From: a virus
Reading direction: 5' to 3' (one strand)
Virus record (IMG/VR): IMGVR_UViG_3300008266_000423
Span: 1,087 to 41,673 of that record
Length of the DNA: 40,587 nucleotides
The notes below the pieces were generated by a model, which saw nothing but the letters and a program-made list of their open reading frames with translations, ran no database searches and had not been told where the DNA came from. The translations under genes were made by a program, and so were the position numbers. Positions 1,329 through 37,059 of the stretch are shown in pieces. How positions within the stretch are numbered: the stretch's first letter is position 1; every line of letters begins with the position of its first letter.

Positions 1329-1539
1329 TGAACGGCCGTTGAACGAAAAAGATATTGCCGGCCGATGTACGATTTGCAATTATGAGTGTACCGCGGAAGA
1401 AGTAGCGCTTGCCGCGTACATCGGTATGTTTTTAGTACGATTCTGCGAGACGTGCTATGTGCCTATGTACGCGCTGTTTACAAAGTTATTAGAAGACGAT
1501 AAAACGGACAACGAAGAACGATATGCCGATGATGAGTGA
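1312..1539 (+). CDS. Small zinc-ribbon protein
   Basis: A 75-residue protein started by GTG at 1312 behind a good GGAGG site at about 1299. It has two CxxC knuckles, CTIC near residue 19 and CETC near residue 46, the spacing of a small zinc ribbon or treble-clef finger. A short hydrophobic stretch (VALAAYIGMFLVRF) lies between them and the tail is acidic. It overlaps the amino acid:DNA transferase-like gene by 17 bases, so the two are probably coupled. A DNA-binding or protein-docking accessory to DNA modification is possible but only an inference from position. Confidence 0.5.
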   Translation: MTQSIDERPLNEKDIAGRCTICNYECTAEEVALAAYIGMFLVRFCETCYVPMYALFTKLLEDDKTDNEERYADDE

Positions 1540-2527
1540 TTTTATAGATTACCGCGCCAAGGAACACCGGCGCGCCGGCTTCGTAAAATATTTTATGTGG
1601 GAAGTAGTATTCAACGACGTTGACACGGCCACTTGGTTGTGTAATTACATAAACAACGCGCTTGAATACGATACTGAAAAGCGCTTCTGGTTTGCTTGGC
1701 TATACGGTACGACATATCACGCCGCGGCCGCTTGGGTAATCCTCAACGCGTTCCCAAATTTTCACGAGATAAATATCAACGAGATGATACAGTGGAATAG
1801 CGAGAATTACAAGCGGCTTCGTTATCAGACGGACACAAAGTATAACAAAGGATTTTTGCCGCCAATGTACGCATCGTATAAGCGATTCATAGGAGACGGA
1901 ACGCAACAAAAAATGTTTGAATCGTTATACGCGGATAATGAAGAAAAAACGTTCAACATTATCTGGACGGCCGTCAATATGAATATTCATAAGTTTGGCC
2001 GCATGATGACGTGGATTTATCTTCAACAGCTAAAGCATACGTGCGCGGTACCGCTTGAACCAACGTCTATGTTTTTGCGCGATTACGGCGGCTCACGTCA
2101 TCACCGGAACGGCTTATTGCTCGCGTTAGGTATGGAAGACTTAATTGATAAGCGGCTTAGCGAAAAACAATATGCGGCGCTTGAATACGAAGCGCAGAAG
2201 ATTATTCACGAGACTCGCGAGCGCTTCCCAGCGCACGCATATAAAGCGGATTTGTTTTGCTTAGAATCCGCGCTATGCGGATATAAAAAAATGTGGCGCG
2301 CTAATGATAGCCGGTATTTTGGGTATGCGTTGGATAGACAAGCGGAAGAGATAACGCAAGTACAAAACGACGGTTGGAGCGGTATTGATTGGAGCTTACT
2401 ATGGCGAGCGCGCGAAGACGTAATTGACGCGCGATTAACGCCAAATAAAGTAATTCTCAAGGATAGGTTCACGTGGTTCGTCAATCACGGCTATATGGGA
2501 AGAGAAGAATGGCTACAAGACAAATAA
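1523..2527 (+). CDS. Amino acid:DNA transferase-like protein (alpha-glutamyl/putrescinyl thymidine pyrophosphorylase type)
   Basis: A 334-residue protein. The order of conserved segments matches what I recall of the family in thymidine-hypermodifying phages: EKRFWFAWLYGTTY near residue 52; a WxxEN...YQTD..Y.K stretch at about 90-110; KFGR then a hydrophobic helix at about 156-165; RNGLLLALG near 195; ESALCGYKK near 247; and GYALDRQAEEI near 264. In known pathways these enzymes displace the phosphate placed on 5-hydroxymethyl-uracil in DNA and install an amino acid or amine. The next gene, overlapping by 19 bases, encodes the expected kinase, which strongly supports the call. The exact clade and donor cannot be told. 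No PLP enzyme, radical SAM enzyme or acetyltransferase for later tailoring is seen nearby. Starts at 1523, 1529 or 1532 are all possible. Confidence 0.65.
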   Translation: MPMMSDFIDYRAKEHRRAGFVKYFMWEVVFNDVDTATWLCNYINNALEYDTEKRFWFAWLYGTTYHAAAAWVILNAFPNFHEININEMIQWNSENYKRLRYQTDTKYNKGFLPPMYASYKRFIGDGTQQKMFESLYADNEEKTFNIIWTAVNMNIHKFGRMMTWIYLQQLKHTCAVPLEPTSMFLRDYGGSRHHRNGLLLALGMEDLIDKRLSEKQYAALEYEAQKIIHETRERFPAHAYKADLFCLESALCGYKKMWRANDSRYFGYALDRQAEEITQVQNDGWSGIDWSLLWRAREDVIDARLTPNKVILKDRFTWFVNHGYMGREEWLQDK

Positions 2528-3051
2528 TCGCAATAGGCGGCCGGCCGGCTTCCGGTAAGACGACGTTGATGCGCGCTATCTTATCGCGATACAAGAACGA
2601 GCTATATGAGCCGGTACGCGGATTATATTGTCACGCCGTTCCGGAGATAAACGCGGCCGTGATAGGCAAATACGATACGCCGGAGCTATACGCCGGAACG
2701 GATAGACTGAGCATGAATATTCAACCGGCCGCGCAAACGTTCGTTCGCGATAGCTCGCTGAATATTCTCTTTGAGGGTGACCGGCTTTTTAATCTCTCAT
2801 TTTTACGATTTTTGCACGCGTTGCCGGATAGCCGCGTGAGTGTGATATATTTAGACGCGCGCGACGAGATTTTGAAAAATCGTTATGAGGAGCGCGGCTC
2901 AAATCAATCCGCAATTTTTCTAAAATCGCGCGCAACGAAGTATCACAATATTTTGAAGAGCTTACCGGCCGTGCAAATTTTTAATCACAACACGCGGATT
3001 CAAAGCGATTCAATATTGAAACTTATCGAAGAATATATATTGAAAAATTGA
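2509..3051 (+). CDS. 5-hydroxymethyl-dU DNA kinase (HMUDK), P-loop kinase
   Basis: A 180-residue P-loop kinase. Walker A is GGRPASGKTT at residues 10-19. GTDRLSM at 63-69 and FEGDRLF at 88-94 are the strings I associate with phage 5-hmdU DNA kinases; an Arg-rich lid region follows (about 118-135). The reaction in the family is phosphorylation of the hydroxymethyl group of 5-hmdU within DNA, creating the leaving group used by the amino acid:DNA transferase. The ATG at 2509 is preferred to the upstream GTG at 2473 because the fold starts immediately after it and a GGAAGAGAAG stretch precedes it. It is the last gene before the AT-rich repeats at 3.05 kb. Its hydroxylated substrate would be made by the TET/JBP gene at 34.4 kb. 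Confidence 0.8.
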   Translation: MATRQIIAIGGRPASGKTTLMRAILSRYKNELYEPVRGLYCHAVPEINAAVIGKYDTPELYAGTDRLSMNIQPAAQTFVRDSSLNILFEGDRLFNLSFLRFLHALPDSRVSVIYLDARDEILKNRYEERGSNQSAIFLKSRATKYHNILKSLPAVQIFNHNTRIQSDSILKLIEEYILKN

Positions 3052-6823: not shown

Positions 6824-7915
6824 ATGACACTGATTTCAATCGTAATTCCATATCACTTAGCGCACGCGACGGTATGCCGGCAGGCCGTCGCGTCCGTGTT
6901 ATATCAGACGGTATCTGATTTTGAAGTAATCGTGGTGAATGATTCTAGTCTTCCAAATTACCGTTTTAAAGATAGCCGCGTGCGTTGCGTATCTTCTCAC
7001 GGCTTAAAGCTTGGGAAAAATCGCGCGGCCGTTGCGCGTAACTTTGGAACGGAACACGCCGTTGGCGATTTTGTAGTATATCTTGACGCTGATGATTATC
7101 TCCTACCGCGAGCGCTGGAGATTTTGTTGCGCGGCCACGTAAATCATGATAAAACATACACGTATAGCAGTCACTACAACGGCGCGTATCATATGCGGCC
7201 GCCGGATTACAATCAGGAGACGTACAAATCATTCAATATTCATCCAATAACGTGTTTGATACCAAGAAAAGCGGTTATTGATGTTGGAGGATTTGACGAA
7301 GACGCGGCCGGTTGGGAAGATTGGACGCTATATTTGCGATTAGCAATCGCCGGTTATTGTGGTGAATTCCATCGCGGACCAATATTTGTGTACCGCGATG
7401 AATATTCAATAAATCATGTGCAAGACGTTGCCGGTGGAGCGGAGCTGATGGAGCGCGTTGTCGCTCCGTACAAAGTAAAAGGAGCTATCAATATGGCGGC
7501 TTGTTGTGGTGGTGGAGATAAGAGCGGCGTACAACGGATTGTCACGGCGATGTCGCCGGTTGAACCGTTGCCAGATGGTATGATTCTATTGGAGTATACC
7601 GGCGATATGTTAGGCACAGCGACATGGCGCCATCCTAAATCCGGCCGGATTTATCGCGCCGGCCGTAATCCAGCAAACAGGTTCATCCGCGTTCCGGCTG
7701 AAGACGAGGAATGGCTGACGCAATTCCGCTTCCGTCGCGCTATGCCTGAACAACCGCTTACGCCGGCGCCGGCGCTCGCGGAGACGATTGAAATTGCCGT
7801 GGAAGAAGCTCCGGTTGCGGAAGCGTTCGTTGAAGATACTGAAACGGACGTACCAACAACGCCGTTGTCGGATTTTAAAGAGCAGGTGAAGCGTGGCAGA
7901 CCAAAAAAGAATTGA
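6824..7915 (+). CDS. GT2-family glycosyltransferase with C-terminal phage domain and AT-hook-like tail
   Basis: A 363-residue protein. Residues 1-220 are a GT-A fold, family 2: SIVIPYHLAHATVCRQAVASV at the start, the nucleotide-sugar loop VVVND, the metal-binding DADDY at 88-92 and a GWEDWTLYLRL acceptor-site segment near 163. After about residue 240 comes a short domain, YTGDMLGTATWRHPKSGRIYRAGR, resembling small domains I associate with phage virion proteins. Then follows a Pro/Glu-rich linker and KRGRPKK at the very end, which resembles an AT-hook. It lies just after the capsid gene, so glycosylation of virion proteins is plausible. Because the phage carries a TET/JBP enzyme, glycosylation of hydroxymethylated DNA is the alternative. 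It overlaps the next gene by 23 bases. No good ribosome binding site sits before the ATG. Confidence 0.75.
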   Translation: MTLISIVIPYHLAHATVCRQAVASVLYQTVSDFEVIVVNDSSLPNYRFKDSRVRCVSSHGLKLGKNRAAVARNFGTEHAVGDFVVYLDADDYLLPRALEILLRGHVNHDKTYTYSSHYNGAYHMRPPDYNQETYKSFNIHPITCLIPRKAVIDVGGFDEDAAGWEDWTLYLRLAIAGYCGEFHRGPIFVYRDEYSINHVQDVAGGAELMERVVAPYKVKGAINMAACCGGGDKSGVQRIVTAMSPVEPLPDGMILLEYTGDMLGTATWRHPKSGRIYRAGRNPANRFIRVPAEDEEWLTQFRFRRAMPEQPLTPAPALAETIEIAVEEAPVAEAFVEDTETDVPTTPLSDFKEQVKRGRPKKN

Positions 7916-8549
7916 ACTGAACGTAGTGATGCCGGTATACGGCCGCGAACATCAATCAATAGCCGCAATAAAGCAGTTACGCGCCACGGCCGGTTATGAA
8001 GCATCTTGGACGGTGATTGGCGGATTAAACGAAGCCGGAACGCTTAATATGATGCCAAATACGTGTCGTAGAATTACGGCCACCCACGATACGTTGACAT
8101 ATTGGCAAGCGCTCGCGTTAGCGACGCAATACACTGAAGATGATGTTTATATTGTGAACGTTGCTAGCGATGTTTTAGGTGTCAATGGATGGTTAAAACG
8201 CGCGGCTGATTATCTTACCGCGCGGCCGGACGTCGTATTTGGATTCAATGGAGACGGCTACGAGGATTATCACGCGTGCCACTTCGCGATTCAAATGCGA
8301 AAAATCCGTCAATACGGTGGTTGGCCGCAATGGTATTACCACAATTTTGGAGACACGGAGATTATTCAACGAGCTATCGCTGAGAGCGCGTTTCATAAAG
8401 ACGCGTGGGCGATTCTTTTTCATAATCATCCGTACGTAGCCGGAGCGGATTCTGACGACGTCTATCAGCGCGGTAATTCCACATACGAACGCGATATGTT
8501 ATTGTACGAGCGGAGGAGACGAGCAAATTGGACATTTATGCCAACCTAA
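7893..8549 (+). CDS. Second glycosyltransferase-like protein (GT-A fold)
   Basis: A 218-residue protein with GTG start at 7893 behind AGGTGAAGC. The opening, NVVMPVYGREHQSIAAIKQL, is typical of GT2 enzymes, followed by VIGGLNEAGT. YIVNVASDVLGVNGWL near residue 87-102 sits where the DxD metal site would be, but it is not a clean DxD. FGFNGDGYEDYH and GDTEIIQRA resemble the acceptor and catalytic base regions. It is probably translated by coupling with the preceding glycosyltransferase, so the two may act in series or as a complex. Substrate is unknown: capsid protein or modified DNA base. Confidence 0.55.
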   Translation: MADQKRIELNVVMPVYGREHQSIAAIKQLRATAGYEASWTVIGGLNEAGTLNMMPNTCRRITATHDTLTYWQALALATQYTEDDVYIVNVASDVLGVNGWLKRAADYLTARPDVVFGFNGDGYEDYHACHFAIQMRKIRQYGGWPQWYYHNFGDTEIIQRAIAESAFHKDAWAILFHNHPYVAGADSDDVYQRGNSTYERDMLLYERRRRANWTFMPT

Positions 8550-19554: not shown

Positions 19555-19644
19555 AGCCACGAGACGATATTGAGCTGATAAAAGATACAGCTGAATGTCG
19601 TCTCGCGGCTTAGAATGGCGCCTATTGGCAAATAGGCACTACTC
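19555..19644 (+). terminator. Bidirectional terminator-like hairpins between converging operons
   Basis: AGCCACGAGACGA at 19555-19567 pairs with TCGTCTCGCGGCT at 19598-19610 with one mismatch, and inner GAGCTG and CAGCTG also pair. The dispersed element follows directly, core GCCTATTGGCAAATAGGC at 19620-19637. The tail operon (plus) and the ArdC operon (minus) converge here; the element runs into the last codons of the ArdC gene. Neither hairpin is followed by a strong T tract. Confidence 0.65.
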
Positions 19645-20496
19645 TGTCGCGATAATCTCGTCAAGATAGCGGACGGCCGCGGCGGCGTTCTTTACGGCTT
19701 CGCGGATATACGATTTGTCTTGCTCAAGCGCGGTAAGCCAATTTGCGATATACGACAAGTGGTCATCGCGTATGGCGTCGTACGATACATTGAGCTTGGC
19801 GCATAGCATCGTCGCGCCTATCTCCGCACATAGCTCCTCTTTAGCGCGGATTTGTATATCATCGCCGGAGCGGATAAGCGTATCACGATTGAGACGGCTA
19901 GCCGCTCCTGTCCAATGGATAAGCTCGTGCGATAACGCGCTGTAATAAAGCTCCGGAGATACAAACGAGTGAAATGGCGGCATTTTGATAATATCCTTAC
20001 GGCGGCTATAAGCCGGATTATCCGGCCATTCAATAATCTCCGCTCCAACGCGTTCAATCCAGCGTTCAATATCCGGTACCGGCGCGCCGGCGTTCCCAAT
20101 CTCTTCAACCGCGTACGCTTCTCCGGCTTCGTTCCGGACGTCTTCCGCGTTAAATACGTGATATGCGCGCGGCGGCCGCTCTGAAAGAATCTCGTTGCCG
20201 TTCGCGTCAATATCGCGTTTAGTCAACGGTGGCGAGTATACCGCAACGCCGCTATGCTTTACCGGATGATATCCAAGCTTATTCCACTGATTGAACGTGC
20301 CCCATACCGGCGTGGCGCGCATCTGAAACACCAACACAATCACGTTCGTTCCGCTGTACGCTTTTTCAGAATCTACGTTGTACGGTAAGAAAATCTTGTG
20401 CGAGCGACGGTATTTGCCGTCAGATTGATGCGCGCTAAGCTCCGCAATAAGCTTCTCAGATAGCTCGTCAATTACTTTGTCGTACGCGTTCGTCAT
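19639..20496 (-). CDS. ArdC-like antirestriction protein (ssDNA-binding domain plus metallopeptidase domain)
   Basis: A 285-residue protein. Residues 1-130 match the ArdC N-terminal DNA-binding domain in style: Y....DKVIDELSEKLIAEL, YSGTNVIVLVFQ, FNQWNKLGYHPVKHSGVAVYSPP with AYHVFNAEDV. Residues 165-285 are the metallopeptidase-like part with HELIHWTG (zinc motif HELIH at 190-194) and EELCAEIGA at 220-228, which supplies the third ligand. ArdC and related TraC-type proteins bind single-stranded DNA and counter restriction. Here it would act early after entry, fitting the apparent GATC avoidance of this genome. It is the last gene of the minus-strand operon fed by the promoter at 22.8 kb. The start is ATG behind GGAGACG. 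Confidence 0.85.
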   Translation of the reverse strand: MTNAYDKVIDELSEKLIAELSAHQSDGKYRRSHKIFLPYNVDSEKAYSGTNVIVLVFQMRATPVWGTFNQWNKLGYHPVKHSGVAVYSPPLTKRDIDANGNEILSERPPRAYHVFNAEDVRNEAGEAYAVEEIGNAGAPVPDIERWIERVGAEIIEWPDNPAYSRRKDIIKMPPFHSFVSPELYYSALSHELIHWTGAASRLNRDTLIRSGDDIQIRAKEELCAEIGATMLCAKLNVSYDAIRDDHLSYIANWLTALEQDKSYIREAVKNAAAAVRYLDEIIATE

Positions 20497-33771: not shown

Positions 33772-33820
33772 GCCGGTACGCGGCGCGGTGGCGTTCGCGT
33801 CGCCGCGTCAAGGAGGATTT

Positions 33821-34468
33821 ATGACGGAATGGAACAACCGGATAACGCGCTATGCGATGGTATCTCCGGCTGATGTAATTGCTCACGTTCAAAATTACCG
33901 TAAACATCCGGCCGCTCAGCGGCGCGCGTTAGCCGCGACAATCGCGGAAGTAGGATATGTTGCGCCGGTAATCGTCAACGAGCGTACGCGAACGATTGTT
34001 GACGGCCATCTTCGCGTAGACTTAGCGCGTGAACAAAAAATTGAAGCGATACCGGTGATATACATTGACGTTGACGAAGCGGAAGAGCGGAAGCTGTTAA
34101 GCACGATTGACCCAATTACGAACATGGCGACGATTGACCAAGCGATATTTAGCGCGTTGCTTGAGACGGTCAAGACTGAATCGCAGGTAGTATCTGACTT
34201 GTGGGATAGCGTCCGGCGCGAAGCCGATGGCGCTAAAACATCGGATAAAGTGGAATGGAGCAAGGGTGGCTATCATGCGTTTGACGCTAAAGAAGCGGAA
34301 AAATACCTGACCAATACCGTCCGTACTATCGTATTTTATATTCAGAACGACGAGTACATGGAGCTAGTCAAGATTATGGATGAATTACTTGTCGCGACGG
34401 ATACCAAATCATATCAGGAATTATTTGTTCATCTAGTTGGAGAAGCTCATGCAAAAGCTAATAATTGA
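33821..34468 (+). CDS. ParB/sulfiredoxin-like nuclease-fold protein
   Basis: A 215-residue protein using ATG 33821 with a perfect AAGGAGG 6 bases upstream. Residues 10-85 are a ParB N-terminal-type domain: VSPADVIAHVQNYRKHPAAQRRAL, GYVAPVIVNERTRTIVDGHLRVDLA with the GH(L)R motif, and IPVIYIDVDEAEERKLL. The C-terminal 110 residues are helical with no ParB HTH. Phage ParB-like proteins can act as nucleases, CTPases or adaptors for DNA modification. It overlaps the TET/JBP gene by 20 bases and heads a run with terminase, so I infer a role in guiding modification or packaging. Confidence 0.75.
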   Translation: MTEWNNRITRYAMVSPADVIAHVQNYRKHPAAQRRALAATIAEVGYVAPVIVNERTRTIVDGHLRVDLAREQKIEAIPVIYIDVDEAEERKLLSTIDPITNMATIDQAIFSALLETVKTESQVVSDLWDSVRREADGAKTSDKVEWSKGGYHAFDAKEAEKYLTNTVRTIVFYIQNDEYMELVKIMDELLVATDTKSYQELFVHLVGEAHAKANN

Positions 34469-35342
34469 CGCCAAGGATATACGCAAGTTTGATAAAAGTA
34501 GGTACGCGGACAGCGCGAGTGAAAAAGATTTTGACCATCTTATCGTAGAATCAACGCGCGTATATATCCGCGAAAACAACGGCGATGAGGTGTTGAAAAT
34601 CGTCTACGCGGAAGCGCCGGCTGACCCAACGTTGGCGCAAATTGAATCCGTCTTAGATGATGTCAAATACTCAAAAGTCACGCGGCTATCCGGACCAAAA
34701 GCTGAAACGCAAATATTTGGTACACGGCCGGCTCACTCAATGAAAAATAATATGCAATCGTGTAGCTCAACGCGTATGGCCTATACGCAACCGGAGCTTC
34801 ACGCCATTATCGCGTCCGGCGCGGAAGTCATCGCGCGTACCTATGAGCGATATAATCCGGAGCTATACCTGAAGCATAGCGCAGAGACGAAAACACACGT
34901 GCGCGAAGAATATCATATGGAAGAGACGGCGTTCACGTCCGGTATTATCAACAAAAACAATCCGCTAGGCTATCACTACGACAAAGGCAATTTTGCGAAC
35001 GTATGGAGCGGAATGATTGTATATAAACGCTTTATTGAGGGTGGATTCTTATCGTGTCCGGAATATAATATTGGCTTTGAGCTTAAGAATCGCTCAATGC
35101 TCCTCTTCGATGGACAAGGAATTATCCACGGCGTTACACCTATAACGAAGCTCCATCCCACGCTATCGCGCCGCTATAGTATCGTGTATTACTCGCTTCA
35201 TAAGATGTGGAATTGTTTACCCATTGAAGACGAGATTAAACGCGCTAATGAGAAGCGTACGACGATGGAACGCGCGCGGACGGAAGCCGGATATGAGGAG
35301 CGCTTCCGCGCGGCGCAAATAGCGCCAAAATTGACGGAATAG
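34449..35342 (+). CDS. TET/JBP-family 2-oxoglutarate/Fe(II) dioxygenase (thymine or 5-methylcytosine hydroxylase)
   Basis: A 297-residue protein; ATG 34449 follows GGAG, while the TTG at 34437 adds nothing. Iron ligands are H176 and D178 in GYHYDKGNF and H227 in GIIHGV; R241/R242 in SRRYSIVYY would bind 2-oxoglutarate. NNMQSC near 100-105, TSGIINKN near 163-170, WSGMIVYKRFIEGGFLSCPEY (split here: WSGM 186-189, GGFLSCPEY 198-206) and LLFDG 218-222 match the TET/JBP family rather than AlkB. JBP enzymes hydroxylate thymine in DNA; some phage TETs act on 5-methylcytosine. The phage kinase acts on 5-hmdU and no cytosine C5 methyltransferase is seen, so thymine is favoured. It is followed 9 bases later by the small terminase gene. 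Confidence 0.85.
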   Translation: MQKLIIDAKDIRKFDKSRYADSASEKDFDHLIVESTRVYIRENNGDEVLKIVYAEAPADPTLAQIESVLDDVKYSKVTRLSGPKAETQIFGTRPAHSMKNNMQSCSSTRMAYTQPELHAIIASGAEVIARTYERYNPELYLKHSAETKTHVREEYHMEETAFTSGIINKNNPLGYHYDKGNFANVWSGMIVYKRFIEGGFLSCPEYNIGFELKNRSMLLFDGQGIIHGVTPITKLHPTLSRRYSIVYYSLHKMWNCLPIEDEIKRANEKRTTMERARTEAGYEERFRAAQIAPKLTE

Positions 35343-35351
35343 GATGTTGAC

Positions 35352-35780
35352 ATGAGCGCTGGACGTAAAGAGCTAAAGACGGAACGCGTACAACGCGCGT
35401 TTGAGCTACGCAAGGCCGGTAAGACGTACCGGCAAATTGGTGAGATGCTAGGATATAGCCACGAAGCGGCGCGCAAGGATATTGCGGCCGTGCTATCGTC
35501 TATAATCGCTGATACGAAGAACAACGCTGAAGAGCTTCTGGCCGTTGAATTATCGCGGCTAGACGATTTACAATTTGGCGTATGGGCAGAAGCGCGCCGT
35601 GGAGATAAACGCGCGATTGATAGCGTGCTAAAGATTATGGAGCGCCGCGCGCGGTTACTAGGCTTAGATATTACGCGCAATCTCAACATTACGGTAACGC
35701 CGGAAGAGATTATGAAAATGAATGACGAGGAGCTTCATGAGCTTGTCGCCGCTGTCAGCAAGGGTGTTGGCGCTAGCTGA
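35352..35780 (+). CDS. Terminase small subunit
   Basis: A 142-residue protein behind AATAGGATGTTGAC. Residues 8-45 form an HTH (RVQRAFELRKAGKTYRQIGEMLGYSHEAARKDI, given here in part: KTYRQIGEMLGYSHEAARKD), followed by helical segments for oligomerisation and an acidic end that would contact the large subunit. It recognises phage DNA for packaging. It overlaps the large subunit gene by 44 bases, as usual for this pair. Being next to the TET/JBP gene, its binding could read modified DNA; that is only a suggestion. Confidence 0.8.
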   Translation: MSAGRKELKTERVQRAFELRKAGKTYRQIGEMLGYSHEAARKDIAAVLSSIIADTKNNAEELLAVELSRLDDLQFGVWAEARRGDKRAIDSVLKIMERRARLLGLDITRNLNITVTPEEIMKMNDEELHELVAAVSKGVGAS

Positions 35781-37059
35781 GATTGAGCGCCGCCGCCGTT
35801 CCAAAAAGCTCGTCACGCCGTCGTTCCGCGGCGCGGCCGCGGATATTCAGAACAATACCGCGGCTGAATGTATAATCTCCGGCCCATCGGAGACGGGCAA
35901 GACGTTCGCGTTGTTGTATAGCGTCCATAATTTGTTGATGCGTTATCCTAACGCGCGCGCCACGCTCGTTCGTAAAGTGCGCGCGACGATATACGGAACG
36001 GTATTGGAGACGTACAAGCGCGTCATTGAATACGGTGATATGGCCGTAACGCCGTATGGCGGCGTGAATCCGTCTATGTATCTTTACGCGAACGGCGCGC
36101 GGCTTTACATAGGCGGCATGGATAATCCGGGCAAAATCCTATCTGGCGAACGCGATGTAATAGTGGTAAATCAAGCGGAAGAGCTAGACGCGCAAGATTG
36201 GGAATATCTCATCACGCGTACTACCGGCCGCGGCGCCGTTGTACCATATCCGGCAACGATTGGTGACGCTAATCCGGCCGCGCCTGAACATTGGATTCTA
36301 AAAAGAGCGGCCGCTGGAACGCTTAAGCTATTGAAAAGCTATCATGTGGACAATCCGTCGCTCCACGATGGTACGGATTGGACGGAACAAGGCCGCCGCT
36401 CAATAAGCCGGCTTCAAGGATTAACCGGCGCGCGGTACGCGAGATTGTATCAAGGAGAATGGGTGGCCGATGACGGTGATGACGCGTTCTTGCCTAGTAT
36501 CGCGTTGTGGGATAATTGTGTTGCGGACGTCGCGCCGGCAACGTCTCATCAGCCGGTAATAATTGGGCTAGACGGCGCCGTGAGCGGCGATACGTTCGCG
36601 GCCGTCGCGGTGAGCCGCAATCCGGATATCGACAACGCGATTGTTGTGCGCGACGTCCGCGTGTGGTCTCCTACAGACAAGCCGCTAGATTACGGCGCGA
36701 TTGAAAATGAGATACGCGAGATGCTTGACACGTTTAACGTGGTTCAAGTCACGTATGACCCATTTCAGTTGCACTACTTAGCGCAACGGCTTAGCGGCGT
36801 GGTATGGTGTAAGCCGTTTATTCAAGGCGCGGATAGATTAGAAGCGGACGCGCAGTTGCGTTCGCTAATCGTACAACGGCAAATCGCGCACGATGGTACG
36901 GCCGCTGTATTGCGCGCTCATCTAGGCAACGCGGATGCAAAGATGGATGAGAGCGGCCATAAGCTCCGGATGGTAAAGCGGCACGCGGCCGCGAAGATAG
37001 ACGCCGCCGTGGCGTTAAGTATGGCGAGCTATCGCGCTTTGGAATTGAATCTGTATTAG
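35737..37059 (+). CDS. Terminase large subunit
   Basis: A 440-residue protein using ATG 35737, with GAGGAG 6 bases upstream inside the small subunit gene. Walker A is SGPSETGKT at about 49-57; VIVVNQAEEL near 141-150 is the Walker B region. The nuclease domain shows GLDGAVSGDTFAAVAV near 268, VTYDPF near 336 and KRHAAAKIDAAVALSMA near the end, giving the acidic metal ligands. It pumps DNA into the prohead and cuts it. The dispersed element and the portal gene follow directly. At 440 residues it has the usual size. Confidence 0.9.
   Translation: MSLSPLSARVLALAEIERRRRSKKLVTPSFRGAAADIQNNTAAECIISGPSETGKTFALLYSVHNLLMRYPNARATLVRKVRATIYGTVLETYKRVIEYGDMAVTPYGGVNPSMYLYANGARLYIGGMDNPGKILSGERDVIVVNQAEELDAQDWEYLITRTTGRGAVVPYPATIGDANPAAPEHWILKRAAAGTLKLLKSYHVDNPSLHDGTDWTEQGRRSISRLQGLTGARYARLYQGEWVADDGDDAFLPSIALWDNCVADVAPATSHQPVIIGLDGAVSGDTFAAVAVSRNPDIDNAIVVRDVRVWSPTDKPLDYGAIENEIREMLDTFNVVQVTYDPFQLHYLAQRLSGVVWCKPFIQGADRLEADAQLRSLIVQRQIAHDGTAAVLRAHLGNADAKMDESGHKLRMVKRHAAAKIDAAVALSMASYRALELNLY

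Follow-up and report, generated by a model that had tools for sequence, protein, structure and literature searches.

A phage TET/JBP dioxygenase as the probable entry enzyme of a thymine hypermodification pathway

RESULTS AND DISCUSSION

A TET/JBP dioxygenase gene stands between a ParB-fold gene and the terminase genes

The stretch of viral DNA analyzed here (the window, 40,587 nucleotides) spans bases 1087 to 41673 of the IMG/VR record IMGVR_UViG_3300008266_000423 (G000), which is linear, 41,673 bases long and perhaps incomplete. At 34449..35342, its plus strand holds an open frame of 297 amino acids that starts at an ATG preceded by a GGAG motif and ends with a stop at 35342; the opposite strand carries many stops. 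The gene encodes a TET/JBP 2OG-Fe(II) dioxygenase (TET), as a preliminary description of this DNA had proposed. Pfam Tet_JBP (PF12851) matched residues 115 to 249 (E = 1.1e-9; 38.2 bits against a cutoff of 34.9), and comparison of an AlphaFold model (mean pLDDT 87.8, pTM 0.83) with 350,542 PDB chains returned only TET-family structures (CMD1, CcTet, TET2, and NgTet1) at ranks 1 to 26, followed by FTO and AlkB. Profile searches against PDB sequences gave TET2 (5.6e-7), NgTet1 (6.5e-4) and CMD1 (0.005); a profile was needed, as a single-sequence search of the PDB yielded P2X noise only. The PHROG and RefSeq name “queuine tRNA-ribosyltransferase” for this TET family was rejected as an annotation error.

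In an alignment of the TET with 19 relatives, which was too diverse to serve as a pattern for scanning, N168, H176, D178, P204, H227, G228, T230, R242, S244, V246, and Y248 were invariant. The HxD...H triad and 2OG arginine of the window protein lined up with those of TET2 and NgTet1, and every TET among the 148 loci read had the same Fe/2OG residue set where the region was complete. Judged by alignment, H176, D178, and H227 are the iron ligands and R242, not R241, the 2OG arginine; the previously listed site, which had left the arginine as R241 or R242, is narrowed accordingly, its histidines and aspartate being retained.

Directly upstream, a ParB-fold gene (33788..34468, plus strand; weak Pfam ParB_N match, PHROG ParB-like families) overlaps the TET start by 20 bases. 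Downstream on the same strand lie a gene for an HTH protein (35352..35780; HTH_38 at E = 9.6e-4, below the cutoff), which is likely the terminase small subunit, directly before TerL and outside the proposed pathway, and the neighboring terminase large subunit gene itself (TerL, 35722..37059; PF20441 and PF04466). All seven of the nearest metagenomic relatives likewise have a ParB-fold gene directly 5′ of TET, as do 12 of the cultured-phage loci and, among the 51 other TETs linked to genes for an amino acid:DNA transferase (ADDT) or a kinase, 24; it was found in none of 61 informative loci of the type that carries a cytosine C5 methyltransferase (C5-MTase). The ParB-TET pair precedes the terminase genes also in the metagenomic contigs L004 to L008, L097, and L100 and in actinophages. 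As a guess, the ParB-fold protein might be a DNA-binding or targeting partner of TET. In contig L111 (1-3626), a close relative by its terminase (76%), no TET was found at the ParB-TET place; the neighborhood instead contains one ORF resembling a DNA methyltransferase and another that has a ParB-like motif. The site therefore seems to be one where phages exchange modification cassettes.

Overlapping ADDT and kinase genes are located far from TET on the contig

The same record encodes an ADDT (1523..2527, plus strand; PF18724, E = 3.7e-20, 73 bits against a cutoff of 26.2), of a Pfam family that phages M6 and ViI also carry, and a P-loop kinase (2509..3051, plus strand; PF18751, a weak 28.5 bits against a cutoff of 27) whose ATG at 2509 lies inside the end of the ADDT gene, giving an overlap of 19 bases up to the ADDT stop. 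Some 31 kb of the contig separate the two genes from TET; on a circular genome the distance would be about 8 kb. For the kinase, the predicted role is phosphorylation of 5-hydroxymethyluracil (5hmU) in DNA. It gave no match at E ≤ 1 to PF18748 (5-hmdU DNA kinases), which the M6 and ViI kinases do match, but profile alignment showed homology to the kinases of M6 (95% probability, E = 2.8e-8) and ViI (E = 1.2e-6), extending over the P-loop, two motifs (“IGKY” and “LFEG”) and a later Arg region. It is a homolog of the 5-hmdU DNA kinases (HMUDK) outside their Pfam family, and HMUDK activity is inferred for it, not assigned by family; the earlier label of 5-hmdU kinase is to be qualified in this sense. 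The names “terminase small subunit” and “adenylate kinase” for this kinase family were rejected as annotation errors. Records phrog_6059 and phrog_800 and many RefSeq phage records list TET/JBP as “queuine tRNA-ribosyltransferase” and the kinase as “terminase small subunit,” both likely misannotations.

Elsewhere in the window, an ArdC-type antirestriction protein (19639-20496, minus strand; ArdcN and MPTase-PolyVal domains) is likely a second antirestriction gene, and behind a probable capsid gene lie two ORFs (6824-8549), one for a GT2 glycosyltransferase and one glycosyltransferase-like, whose products may decorate virion or DNA. A search with the capsid-type protein for a host genome found none.

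TET, ADDT and kinase genes travel together across phages

Scanning IMG/VR with the window kinase gave 334 relatives, from which 80 loci were fetched (a scan with an ADDT pattern found no relatives). ADDT was present in 70 of these 80 loci and TET in 53, on the kinase strand in all 53; among the 27 loci with 7 kb or more of upstream sequence, 26 held TET and 25 held ADDT, although these counts do not equal independent events because the contigs are related to one another. Gene order varies. Contig L100 has ParB, TET, amidotransferase-like, GNAT, ADDT, and kinase genes, each overlapping the next and followed by terminase genes; L097 has an overlapping ParB-kinase-TET-TerL operon; and L059 has the order amidotransferase-like-GNAT-ADDT-TET-kinase. 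The FAD oxidoreductase, GNAT, and amidotransferase-like genes of related operons would be consistent with further modification of the amino acid once attached; none was found in the ADDT-kinase neighborhood of the window.

The window TET falls in a clade (100/100 support) with those of L097, L100, L004 to L007, and actinophages. The nearest contigs, L004 to L008, pair TET with an FkbM-type methyltransferase and lack the kinase, with no ADDT in the longer two (L005 and L006), and ADDT was undetected in the actinophages Nigel, Terij, and Kharcho, all of which carry TET and kinase. Mycobacterium phage Saguaro (L026, 1-6495) shares the ParB...kinase-TerL arrangement of TET phages, but queuosine-type (deazaguanine) genes stand where TET would be; the PF18751 kinase beside them is retained. 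Arthrobacter phage Altadena (L022, 2190-5565) has ParB, TET, a PF20691 TET-associated glycosyltransferase, and a deacetylase, whereas searches for C5-MTase and kinase found neither; its thymine could conceivably be glycosylated in a base-J-like way.

The distance of the window TET from ADDT and kinase, its pairing with an FkbM-type methyltransferase in L004 to L008, and the occupation of its place by a DNA-methyltransferase-like ORF and another ORF in L111 would all suit a dioxygenase acting as a stand-alone counter-defense, for example by oxidizing methylated bases against methyl-dependent restriction, with no link to the other two enzymes. Against this stand the sister TETs of L097 and L100, which share overlapping operons with the kinase and, in L100, with ADDT, as well as the strong general linkage of the three genes, and we consider so isolated a role very improbable. 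Glycosylation offers a second way of uncoupling them: 5hmU could be mainly glycosylated in the manner of base J by the glycosyltransferases of the window, with ADDT and kinase serving otherwise. The genome has a GT2 gene (PF00535, 61 bits) and Altadena provides a TET followed by a glycosyltransferase where a C5-MTase is lacking, but the GT2 of the window resembles glycosyltransferases of the cell envelope and does not match PF20691, and its position behind the probable capsid gene makes capsid decoration equally likely. As the ADDT and kinase genes also overlap each other and are found with TET in phage after phage, glycosylation as the main fate of 5hmU seems improbable.

TS-like enzymes are absent from the TET-bearing records searched, Cr30 excepted

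Pfam searches of the whole 41,673-base record detected no thymidylate synthase-like protein (TS-like, PF00303), no ThyX (PF02511), and no C5-MTase (PF00145). In the 1,086 bases beyond the window, which are partly masked, nothing but the beginning of a virion-type ORF was seen. The earlier statement that neither a C5-MTase nor a dUMP hydroxymethylase is visible is thus borne out for the whole of a linear, perhaps incomplete record. Across 51 whole records, PF00303 was found only in Cr30, M6, and ViI, the last two being TS-type controls, and a further 34 records yielded no match. The Cr30 match was strong and of the ordinary thymidylate synthase type, and Cr30 is the sole TET-bearing record with TS among the 85; M6 and ViI carry a TS-like enzyme, ADDT, and kinase without TET, and two kinase/ADDT contigs (L034 and L089) have neither TET nor TS. 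C5-MTase scored above the cutoff only in Methylophilales phage Melnitz and in L042 among the records searched, the latter being a single record with TET, ADDT, and kinase whose C5-MTase lies far from TET. No C5-MTase was found in the complete actinophage genomes of the window's TET clade, where absence carries more weight than in the many records that are fragments.

Scanning with the Melnitz TET retrieved 71 loci, 65 with both C5-MTase and TET, 27 with a kinase, and none with ADDT. The C5-MTase-linked TETs formed one clade (100/100) apart from that of the window, only Melnitz-type TETs having been sampled for this lineage. In Melnitz (L028, 1011-5091) and 24 of the loci L112 to L182, genes for C5-MTase, TET, an unknown ORF, and a P-loop kinase are consecutive, without ADDT, possibly a route via phosphorylated 5-hydroxymethylcytosine (5hmC) to hypermodified cytosine. 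The kinase by itself is therefore no proof of 5hmU, because it occurs with C5-MTase and TET in the Melnitz type and without TET in Saguaro.

These loci bear on whether the window TET could instead oxidize 5-methylcytosine (5mC) made by a host or an unseen phage C5-MTase, with kinase and ADDT acting on 5hmC. The matched TET-family structures are enzymes of 5mC in DNA, and a kinase of this superfamily beside C5-MTase and TET in Melnitz and 24 IMG/VR loci makes phosphorylated 5hmC conceivable. However, C5-MTase is lacking from the record and from the complete actinophage genomes of the clade, the C5-MTase-linked TETs are a separate clade that is always without ADDT, and ADDTs of this family occur in M6 and ViI, phages that modify 5hmU. 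The active site also differs: 8 residues after the 2OG arginine, TET2 and NgTet1 have His, which was found in none of the phage TETs read; the window has Leu250, most actinophage TETs Leu, most other ADDT-linked TETs Arg, and C5-MTase-linked TETs Asp. This residue sorts the TET groups better than the N181 position does, yet it is confounded with phylogeny and proves nothing, its distribution being compatible with a different base being read. The residue three positions after the iron aspartate (N181 in the window, D in many relatives) was rejected as a thymine/cytosine discriminator since ADDT-linked TETs show both N and D. On balance, we regard oxidation of 5mC by the window TET as unlikely.

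A probable DNA-level entry into thymine hypermodification

We propose that TET would act on phage DNA after replication, using iron, O2, and 2-oxoglutarate to hydroxylate thymine at its 5-methyl group and give 5hmU; that the P-loop kinase encoded with ADDT would then phosphorylate the hydroxymethyl group; and that ADDT would exchange the phosphate for an amino acid, yielding a hypermodified thymine that may shield the DNA from host nucleases. TET would here stand in for the TS-like dUMP hydroxymethylase that opens the pathway in M6- and ViI-type phages. This sequence of TET, kinase, and ADDT, with TET replacing the TS-like entry enzyme, is probably correct. It is favored because the three genes travel together on one strand, because records with TET lack a TS-like enzyme (Cr30, with its ordinary-looking TS, excepted), and because C5-MTase belongs to another TET lineage that is always without ADDT. 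Of the route from thymine through 5hmU and phosphorylated 5hmU to a substituted thymine already outlined in the preliminary description, the comparative linkage is upheld, with the exception of HMUDK family membership for the kinase. Gene content is what points to thymine, rather than 5mC, as the substrate of TET; the substrate, order of steps, and amino acid product are modeled on M6/ViI chemistry and JBP, and protection from restriction is likewise the presumed benefit of the modified base.

We also put forward, tentatively and with some doubt, a second phage route to hypermodified thymine that would act wholly on finished DNA, in which TET oxidizes thymine in place and the ParB-fold partner directs it to target sites. 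The ParB-fold protein is suggested for this part because no methyltransferase chooses the sites and because its gene stands beside these TETs but not beside C5-MTase-type TETs. If the proposed pathway is true, thymine hypermodification would have two interchangeable entry points, the nucleotide pool and the DNA; the DNA route could mark chosen sites and would require no specialized precursor pool or polymerase. Such phages would also be a source of thymine-oxidizing enzymes for sequencing and DNA labeling, and the compact L100 and L097 operons are handy test cases.

Comparison with known systems

The route from TET through kinase to transferase was reportedly proposed from gene neighborhoods by Iyer, Aravind, and colleagues, a 2013 paper of whom is cited in PMC6449724; our literature search found no report of thymine oxidation by a phage TET. 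The closest loci are those of the Cooper/Nigel-type actinophages (Mycobacterium phages Nigel, Prince, and LilMcDreamy; Gordonia, Microbacterium, and Arthrobacter phages; Rhodococcus phage Tonitrus), which like the window have a ParB-fold gene, TET, often ADDT or aGPT-PPlase, and a P-loop kinase near TerL. Their TETs fall in the window's clade at about 24 to 28% identity to its TET; in contrast to them, the window has its ADDT and kinase apart from TET, near the other contig end. Actinophage loci of this make-up have already been annotated as thymidine hydroxylase or Tet-like protein. The Tonitrus locus has been published as a predicted thymidine hypermodification system, with other actinophages described likewise (PMC11955845), and gp2 of Mycobacterium phage Cooper serves as a reference phage TET/JBP (PMC12730594).

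The window shares its ADDT Pfam family and a homologous kinase with the M6/ViI systems, which differ in entering through a TS-like enzyme in the nucleotide pool, in having no TET, and in kinases that belong to PF18748. This thymidine hypermodification was reportedly described by Lee and colleagues in 2018 and 2022 (cited in PMC11955845). Phage cytosine hypermodification by TET and C5-MTase, reportedly the subject of work by Burke in 2021 (cited in PMC12730594), uses a TET/JBP enzyme with the same Fe/2OG residues, but it relies on a C5-MTase, which the window lacks, and has a TET of another clade, no ADDT, and no ParB beside TET. Precedent for the proposed reaction comes from trypanosomatid JBP1 and JBP2, which hydroxylate thymine in DNA during base J synthesis (PMC6449724); there the step is followed by glucosylation, in place of the phosphorylation and amino acid transfer proposed for the window. 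The window locus thus joins an already predicted kind, and its thymine reading is not new; to this, the present analysis adds that entry enzymes alternate, that these TETs are split from the C5-MTase lineage, and that they are associated with ParB. Phage TET action on thymine has been predicted for years, and with these comparisons it becomes a well-defined case that can be tested.
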